From assembly GCA_031289585.1 (NCBI GenBank), contig JAITPF010000046.1, positions 1-36,089 of the forward strand: a stretch of 36,089 nucleotides of DNA. The letters run 5' to 3'. Positions 33,097 to 36,089 of the stretch are shown one piece after another. The notes under the pieces were generated by a model. That model was not told where the DNA came from, did not search any database, and was given only the letters and a program-made list of their open reading frames with translations. Each line of letters begins with the position of its first letter. The first letter of the stretch is position 1. Both the position numbers and the translations under genes were made by a program. This DNA is from Endomicrobium sp. Lineage in GTDB: Bacteria > Elusimicrobiota > Endomicrobiia > Endomicrobiales > Endomicrobiaceae.

Positions 33097-36089
33097 ATGC
33101 AAGCAGTAATTCTAGCGGCAGGTTTAGGCAGTAGGCTTAAAGACAAAACTAAAAATATGCCTAAAGGCTTTTTAGAATTGAATAGTATTCCAATTGTTGA
33201 GTGGTCTATATGTAAACTTATAGGCATTGGCATAGATAAAATAATAATTGGTACAGGTCATTGTAAGGAATACTATGAAGATTTAGCTGTAAAGTATCCT
33301 GTAATTGAGACTGTGTATAACCCAGAGTTTGCAAATACCGGAAGTATGGCTACTTTAGCTATTTGTGCAAAAAAGATAACGGATGATTTTTTACTTCTTG
33401 AGTCAGACTTGATTTATGATTCCATTGGGCTATTTACACTTATTAACGATACTTATTCTAATGTGGTTTTGGCGTCTGGGGAGACAAAATCTGGAGATGA
33501 AGTTTATATCAGTACGATTGAAAATAATATACTAAAAGAGGTTTCAAAAAATAAAGCAGAACTTTCTTGTGTGTATGGGGAGTTAGTTGGCATTACAAAA
33601 CTTACGGTTAAATATTTAAATGCGATGCTTGAGTATGCTGAAAAAAATAATAATAATCCGAAGTTGGACTATGAAACTGTGATAGCAAGGGTTTCAAAAG
33701 AAGAAAATCCAGTATATGTCCGTAAAATTGAATACTATACATGGTGTGAAATTGACGATGAAAATCATTTATCTGTAGCCAAAAAGAAAATATTTCCAAA
33801 GATTGTTGAAAATGAATCGTTACGGACTGTTAAGAGAGAAATTTTGCTAAACCCTGGTCCTGCAACGACGACTGATACAGTAAAATATGCTCAAGTTTGT
33901 GCTGATATATGCCCCCGAGAAGAAGAATTTGGCAAACTTCAGCAGTGGATTTTCAATGAACTATCTTTGTTGGCAGGAGAAAAAGGAAAAGTTGAAACTG
34001 TTCTTTTTTGTGGTTCTGGGACAGCGGCAGATGAGATAATGCTTTCGTCCTGCGTACCTGATGATGGTAAATTGTTAATTGTTGACAATGGAGCTTATGG
34101 AGCAAGACTTGCAAATATTGCGAAAATTTATAAATTAAACTTTGATGTTTACAAGAGTTCTGGTTTTTTGCCGCTTGACATAGAAGATGTTAAAGTAAAA
34201 CTTATAGAAGGCAAATATACACATTTTGCTGTTGTTTATCATGAAACTACAACTGGACTAATGAATCCTGTTGTAGAACTTTGTCATTTTTGTCGACAAA
34301 ATGCCATTACCACTATAGTTGATGCGGTAAGTGCATTTGCAGCAATACCTATTGATATGGATAAAGATGGTATTGATTTTATGGCTTCAACATCTAATAA
34401 AAATATTCAAGGCATGGCAGGCGTATGTTTTGTATTTTGTTTTAAAGATGCTTTAGAAAAAATAAAGGATTATAAAAAAAGAAATTATTATTTTGATTTA
34501 TATGATCAGTATGAATATTTTAAAAAGACTAAGCAGATGCGTTTTACGCCTCCGGTGCAAGTTCTCTATGCTTTAAAACAGGCTATAATTGAGCTGAAAA
34601 TAGAAACTATAGAAAAGCGCTACGAACGTTATAGTTCTTGTTGGAATGAGTTAATAAAAGTATTGGGAGAATTAAATTTAAAGACGCCTGTGCCGATTTC
34701 AGCGCAGTCAAAACTTATTACTACGATTGTTGAACCTGAAAATCCAAAATATAGTTTTAAATCTTTGCATGATATAGCTAAAAGACAAGGATTTACTATT
34801 TATCCAGGCAAATTATCGGAATTAAATACTTTTCGTATAGCTAATATTGGGGACATTAAGCCTGAAGAGATGCGTGAATTTTGCAATATTCTTAGAAAAT
34901 ATATGGGAGAGTTTATGAGTGAGAAAAAGGTGATTTATTTAGGTTTAAGTGGAGATATAATTCATCCTGGAATAGTAAATATTATAAACGAAGGAGCAAA
35001 ACACGGCGAGGTATTAGTTGGATTATTAACAGATTCTGCATTTGCATCACATAAAAGACTGCCCTATTTGAACTATAAACAGAGAAAAGCTGTGATAGAA
35101 AGTATTAAAGGTGTTACCCAAGTTGTGCCACAAGAAGAATGGAGTTATGTGCCCAATTTACTTAAATACCGACCAGATGCAATAATACATGGAGATGATT
35201 GGAAGGATGGACTGCTTAGTAAAGAGCGCGAAGCAGTTTTTAAAGTTATGAAAGAGCTAGGAGGGGAAGTTATAGAAATTCCGTATACAAAAGGTATTGA
35301 TTCATCAAGACTAAACAAAGGTATGATATCTATAGGAACAACGCCAGATATACGACTTAAAATGCTGAAGAGATTGTTGAAAGCAAAGCCAATAGTTAGG
35401 ATAATGGAAGCGCATTCAGGGCTTAGTGGTTTGATTGTAGAAAATATTGAGGTTAATAAAGAAGACGGATTACATAGTTTTGACGGAATGTGGTCGTCAA
35501 GTTTAACGGATTCTACAAGTAAAGGTAAACCTGACATAGAAGCAGTTGATTTAACTACAAGATTGCAAAGCTTGACAGATATTTTAGAATGCACAACAAA
35601 ACCGATTGTTTTTGATGGTGATACAGGAGGAAAACTTGAGCATTTTGTCTTTACAGTGCGAACGCTGGAAAGGAATGGGATTTCAGCCGTTATTATTGAA
35701 GATAAGAGGGGGTTAAAGAAAAATTCTCTTTTTGGCACAGAAGTGAAACAGGAGCTTGCGACTATACCTGATTTTTGCGCAAAAATAGCAGCAGGAAAAA
35801 AAGCGCAAATAACAGAAGATTTTATGATAATAGCAAGACTAGAAAGCTTGATTGCAGGTTATAGTGTAGAAGACGCACTTGTTAGAGGAAGGGCTTTTGT
35901 TGGTGCAGGAGCAGATGGAGTGATGATACACAGTAAAGAAAAAACTGGAACTGAAATTAAAGAGTTTTGTAAAAAGTTTCGTAGTGAATTTCCTAATGTG
36001 CCAATAGTGCTAGTGCCTACTACATATAATCAATTTAAAGAAAAAGAGTTTATAGAATGGGGGGTGGGTGGGGGAGCAAACGTAATTAT
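33097..36089 (+). CDS. Multidomain phosphonate biosynthesis fusion: PntC, AEP transaminase, cytidylyltransferase-like, PEP mutase (3' end outside window)
   Basis: One frame stays open from ATG 33097 to the window edge (997 codons, no stop found by hand translation). Domain 1 (about 1-240) is a nucleotidyltransferase with [19 protein letters not shown], like PntC, which forms CMP-2-aminoethylphosphonate. Domain 2 (about 248-605) is a fold-I PLP transaminase like AEP transaminase: [39 protein letters not shown], and the lysine at 435 in [12 protein letters not shown]. Domain 3 (about 607-745) is cytidylyltransferase-like ([40 protein letters not shown]), but its HxGH site reads HPGI. Domain 4 (from about 750) is PEP mutase: [49 protein letters not shown] mutase makes the C-P bond. 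Phosphonopyruvate decarboxylase is not in the window. Confidence 0.88.

Follow-up and report, generated by a model that had tools for sequence, protein, structure and literature searches.

A four-domain frame at a contig end

The window analysed here is the whole of contig C34 (36,089 nucleotides) of a draft Endomicrobium genome (1.28 Mb, 49 contigs, 86.1% complete). On its forward strand, an ATG at position 33097 opens a frame that runs without a stop to 36087, encoding 997 amino acids, and is still open at the contig end. Domain searches bore out the four domains, and their order, that a preliminary description had read in this single frame: a PntC cytidylyltransferase, a 2-aminoethylphosphonate (AEP) transaminase (AEPT), a cytidylyltransferase-like (CyTase-like) domain and a PEP mutase (Ppm). 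These identities rest on Pfam and TIGR models and on the structure 6pd1, which we take to carry the name Tde1415. Residues 2-604 align end to end with 6pd1, their closest solved structure (E 4.6e-241), and this alignment delimits the PntC domain (33097..33801, + strand, residues 1-235). The AEPT domain (33835..34905, + strand, residues 247-603) reaches 371.7 bits with TIGR03301 (PhnW/AepZ; cut-off 360.8) and stays below the threshold of the related model TIGR02326 (307.9 against 400.8); its SNKNIQG motif, in which K435 is presumably the PLP lysine, is conserved in 6pd1. The CyTase-like domain (34924..35319, + strand, residues 610-741) scores above the cut-off of Pfam CTP_transf_like. The PEP mutase domain (35365..36089, + strand, residue 757 onwards, with 757-990 matched) gives 333.3 bits with TIGR02320 (cut-off 319.55) although it is truncated, and carries the EDKxxxxxNS motif at residues 868-877.

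Both domain pairs had been described beforehand as known two-domain fusions, and both were found as such. The first is represented by Tde1415 of Treponema denticola (6pd1 and 6pd2), a PntC-AEPT protein with transaminase activity, whose crystal contains CMP-AEP and in which Glu104 and Glu196 contact AEP (PMC6697681). These glutamates align with E102 and E193 of the window, and together with the homology to Tde1415 they place the first domain in PntC. Tde1415 is a separate two-domain protein, whereas the window frame runs on into CyTase-Ppm. The second pair corresponds to the Fom1-type CyTase-PEP mutase fusions (PF01467+PF13714), which made up 23.6% of Ppm proteins in a 2019 inventory (PMC6697681). 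The window shares this pair and its order but differs from the Fom1 type in both CyTase signature motifs and in carrying a separate PntC domain. As set out in the main text of that paper, the 1,485 Ppm proteins of the inventory comprise Ppm alone or with PF12804, PF01467, both, or TPP domains, and triple fusions (PF12804+PF01467+PF13714) account for 42 of the 1,485 (PMC6697681). Such triple fusions, exemplified by L179 (669 amino acids), resemble the window in joining a PntC-like NTP transferase, a CyTase-like domain and PEP mutase in one chain, but L179 lacks the transaminase. The main-text section on the inventory names no aminotransferase fusion (PMC6697681), and the open-licence literature searched yielded neither a four-domain protein nor the motif rule described below.

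An inferred contig join and the decarboxylase gene

The window's final 15 bases (36075..36089, + strand) are shared with the start region of contig C3 of the same genome (L005:105-119), and we infer that the two contigs join there. Across this join, the 33097 frame goes on for 48 residues that correspond to the PEP mutase C terminus of relatives and then meets a stop (L005:262-264), and the predicted protein thus appears to end 48 residues beyond the window, on C3. One base after the stop, in another frame, an ATG (L005:266) opens a 376-residue ppd frame with a match to phosphonopyruvate decarboxylase (Ppd) at C3:311-1375, above the curated cut-off. The suggestion that a decarboxylase might be fused or might follow is therefore half right: the gene follows closely but is separate. 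We rejected a decarboxylase fused in the same chain, since ppd is its own gene after the Ppm stop, and given the inferred join the pathway is not complete in one chain, Ppd lying in a separate frame.

Both contig ends are garbled. A G-rich stretch at the window end (36059..36074, + strand) encodes an extra GVGG that is absent from all seven relatives compared and is probably an assembly artefact, and C3 begins with a C-rich stretch (L005:1-104) ahead of the 15 shared bases; such sequence on both sides is a likely cause of the assembly break. A genome of the same genus (G020) retains a remnant of ppm and, downstream of it with other genes between, genes that by eye resemble two of those on C3: leuS, named by its NCBIfam match, and a gene that we take to be tlyA-like.

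The junction between the two halves

At the junction (34905..34918, + strand), GGGAGAG, which contains a ribosome-binding-like GGAG, is followed by ATGA. The inner ATG (34915-34917) encodes M607 and matches the CyTase-Ppm start of relatives, such that the second gene retains its own ATG with a preceding GGAG. In two genomes of the same family (G298 and G299), PntC-AEPT ends in a TGA that overlaps the CyTase-Ppm ATG as a 4-nt ATGA. This ATGA is also present in the window at 34915-34918. There, however, the frame coming from upstream is out of register by one base and passes over the TGA, and a single base within a short run of G accounts for the difference from the G298 and G299 layout. The ATGA overlap also occurs in G421 and G527, of the Treponema order, whereas in G548, G571, G1484 and G1521 both genes lie in one frame and are split by one stop. 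All eight genomes have the same genes, order and junction point as the window, and all eight have the junction stop codon that the window lacks.

Adjacent pairs elsewhere follow the same pattern. Thirteen pairs have AEPT before CyTase-Ppm on one strand. In 11 of them the two genes are at most 10 bases apart and a stop is always present; no ATG was found at L044 and L130, for which gene-to-gene distances are inexact, and the second frame of L130 starts with TTG directly after TAA. The other 2 of the 13, in the congeners G022 and G032, have about 0.9-1.0 kb between AEPT and CyTase-Ppm, occupied by a methyltransferase gene in G022 and by methyltransferase pieces with stops in G032. Counting G1484, G1521 and L194 with the 11, a stop is present in 14 of 14 close pairs.

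A search for a second example

The preliminary description had proposed a search for the same four domains in the same order, and no second example emerged: in 1,772 genome-searches with repeats (about 1,500 distinct genomes, estimated from handle numbers), no other listed match was stop-free over both halves, a state seen only in the window's own genome among the matches listed. Whole-protein searches covered 59 relatives, 340 genomes of the window's phylum, 8 genomes behind loci, 340 of the order of G342, 147 of the order of G341, 344 of the order of G343, 298 of the phylum of G344 and 195 of the family of G571, and a junction-piece search covered 41 genomes of the window's genus. The sets for the G342 order, the G343 order and the G344 phylum are samples of larger groups; for these three and for the window's phylum, two candidates were scored per genome, and the G342-order result holds among the matches listed, best first. 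Matches to the whole protein contained one stop in G548, G571, G1484 and G1521 (partial) and three in G326. An initial scan of the whole collection gave 18 loci, and those covering both halves were separate frames. Within the searched sets, no independent genome had the same unbroken frame, the mark of a stable four-domain fusion family.

Other candidates were set aside on inspection. A 1,426-residue frame in G032 was rejected because a TAA follows PntC-AEPT in its DNA and more stops precede CyTase-Ppm; the junction-piece search gave 632 and 460 at the same places. In the phage and plasmid collections no record covered 80% of the query in one place, and none of the viral contigs matched the patterns. 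A phage copy was likewise rejected, the best 'phage' match being an unverified fecal scaffold (L194) with AEPT and CyTase-Ppm in two frames. Separately, in the archaeal genome G765 (order of G341), a PntC-AEPT frame runs, by eye, stop-free into a membrane-helix-like stretch, for 1,041 codons in all (L166:1706-4828, - strand).

A recent join or a sequence error

All close relatives examined close the first gene with a stop codon. The join therefore reflects either a recent change at a single base or an error in the sequence, and we give the two equal weight. On the former reading the extra base would be real and fixed, and a PntC-AEPT-CyTase-Ppm protein would be made. All 997 codons are open, both halves retain their family scores and motifs, and the in-frame extension of the archaeal AEPT C terminus at L166 suggests that such joins may occur. 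The quality of the contig also favours a real base: 8 of 9 scanned window proteins have near-complete NCBIfam matches (1e-60 or better), the remaining one being short and without a match at that limit, and frameshift errors are therefore not frequent in the contig. Against this stand the failure to find a second case in the genome-searches, the stop in all 14 close pairs and the single base that separates the window from the G298 and G299 layout.

That same base is also an argument for an error, which is just as probable: one surplus G would hide the stop of the usual two overlapping genes. Read by eye in the alternative frame, the first gene would end in KYMESL-stop, which fits the tails of relatives (YMRTL, YLETL and YMEEI), and surplus G-rich sequence does occur at the contig's own end. 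The junction, however, lies about 1.15 kb from that faulty end, and the near-full-length proteins elsewhere in the window again speak for its accuracy. An ancient, selected fusion typical of the lineage is scarcely credible, and we rejected it. It has nothing in its favour beyond the frame itself and is contradicted by G022 and G032, in which the two genes stand apart with methyltransferase sequence between them, and by the stop in the family members G298 and G299.

The window clusters with G022 and G032 (SH-aLRT 99) in a quick tree of PEP mutase (82 rows), but with G298 and G299 (97) in a quick PntC-AEPT tree (33 rows), where G022 and G032 fall among Treponema-order rows. Placing the window, G022 and G032 together is rejected for PntC-AEPT (p-AU 2e-7; 32 rows, L014 left out), and for PEP mutase the data do not reject a tree that unites the window with G298 and G299 (p 0.22). 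G298 and G299 have the window's type of PntC-AEPT, and the simplest reading is that PntC-AEPT was replaced in G022 and G032. The single frame would have arisen from neighbouring PntC-AEPT and CyTase-Ppm genes, ATGA-overlapping as in the same-family genomes, when the short run of G before the second ATG changed by one base and brought both genes into one frame.

Decay of the third domain and a possible link to its gene neighbours

The third domain has HPGI at residues 623-626 and GIDSS at residues 733-737, where 5x3d, its closest solved CyTase domain, has HPGH and GISST, in keeping with its earlier description as degenerate. It does not have the HxGH and ISST-type motifs of a catalytic Fom1-type CyTase and is probably not catalytic; having lost its active-site motifs, it is probably structural. 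The proposal that one chain might combine C-P bond formation, transamination and CMP activation stands in so far as motifs predict these three activities, but by the same motifs the chain would comprise three rather than four catalytic domains.

We then compared motif state with gene neighbourhood in 82 CyTase-Ppm proteins (84 aligned; the far relatives L029 and L030 left out). Neighbours were called by BLAST limits that we set (AEPT 150, PntC 75 and alcohol dehydrogenase (ADH) 80 bits) over stretches that ranged from 3 to 16 kb, apart from the longer window. Both motifs (HxGH and IS-S/C-T/S) were kept at 28 of 30 loci with Fe-ADH and without PntC or AEPT. The two exceptions each have a PntC-like match, at 54 bits for L159 and 63 bits for L179, the latter in the CyTase-Ppm chain itself. 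At loci with PntC and/or AEPT and without ADH, both motifs were kept in 0 of 42 (one label, that of L147, rests on a 78-bit match): 33 had lost both, 2 HxGH only and 7 the second motif only. Neither motif was lost at three loci with ADH and PntC, one of them also with AEPT, so the presence of PntC is not by itself enough to cause decay. Where none of these partners was found (seven loci), five had lost both motifs, one had lost the second and one was intact. The rows behind these counts are related and have few independent origins: the pathway label changes four times on the tree, with only three independent pairs on well-supported branches, and a tree-based sign test, which is low in power, was non-significant (median p 0.5; 198 of 200 pairings with two pairs in the expected direction and none against).

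The ADH of G042 is an Fe-ADH by Pfam and falls below the cut-off of the phosphonate-specific TIGR03405; it may be a phosphonoacetaldehyde reductase, which would place G042 on the hydroxyethylphosphonate (HEP) route. At another locus (L138:7150-8778, - strand; G389), the PntC half of PntC-AEPT seems, by eye, to be without the usual nucleotide-binding motif, and the CyTase domain there is degenerate too.

These motif data and the junction can be combined in one scenario, which we hold tentatively, at somewhat below even confidence: a real three-step PntC-AEPT-CyTase-Ppm protein with a dead CyTase would be made beside free CyTase-Ppm from the internal start, newborn in a small genome, and the CyTase on PEP mutase would decay when a separate PntC takes over.

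A predicted CMP-AEP operon

We consider it likely that the locus is a CMP-2-aminoethylphosphonate (CMP-AEP) operon with a structural CyTase-like domain, its long frame derived from two overlapping genes by a one-base change. PEP mutase would form phosphonopyruvate, the separate downstream Ppd would convert this to phosphonoacetaldehyde, the AEPT domain would yield AEP, and the PntC domain would activate AEP with CTP to CMP-AEP. If the extra base is real, a fusion of about 1,040 amino acids would be possible alongside CyTase-Ppm alone from the retained start; an erroneous base would leave the locus with an ordinary two-gene layout. The activities in the window organism, the transfer step and the use of the inner start are all predictions from sequence. 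A Fom1-like pathway, in which the CyTase domain would make CMP-hydroxyethylphosphonate as the end product, is very unlikely: the domain is homologous to 5x3d, but HPGI and GIDSS replace HPGH and GISST, AEPT and PntC are present, and a scan confined to the window gave no ADH match.

Two genes directly upstream are candidates for the transfer machinery of the CMP-AEP operon. The first (29290..31788, + strand) encodes a YidC-like membrane protein with an N-terminal Pfam 60KD_IMP match (79 bits). By eye, and by way of a Treponema relative with Sulfatase and Phosphodiest matches below cut-off, its C-terminal half resembles the sulfatase/phosphodiesterase superfamily; the protein itself had no sulfatase match in the domain search. 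The second (31791..33083, + strand) is a CDP-glycerol glycerophosphotransferase-like (TagF-like) gene for a putative transferase (Pfam Glyphos_transf, 37.3 bits). Genes similar to both adjoin other CyTase-Ppm loci. Judging from this neighbourhood, a surface glycan or lipid is the probable acceptor of the activated phosphonate, with the TagF-like protein, the YidC-sulfatase-like protein or both probably carrying out the transfer.

A YidC-like and sulfatase-like protein with a TagF-like gene recurs at AEPT-type and ADH-type loci alike (L009:11439-14114; L173-L177). On the 'Bacteriophage sp.' scaffold L194, which looks bacterial, a YidC-like domain is fused to a glycerophosphotransferase domain in a phosphonate operon (L194:1114-3213). 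A related Elusimicrobiota MAG (L017) has a gene order similar to that of the window, and its TagF-like gene is interrupted by an in-frame stop (L017:2595-2597).

Implications

The CMP-AEP operon is of a known kind, and the join within it is newborn or absent. A real base would mean that overlapping genes can give rise to a multifunctional phosphonate enzyme in a single step. Independently of the fusion question, we propose a rule in which an intact CyTase on PEP mutase goes with the alcohol-dehydrogenase route, probably to hydroxyethylphosphonate, and a decayed CyTase with the PntC/AEPT route to aminoethylphosphonate; this rule could help to predict the phosphonate of a gene cluster. In the window organism, the CMP-AEP product would most likely serve surface decoration.
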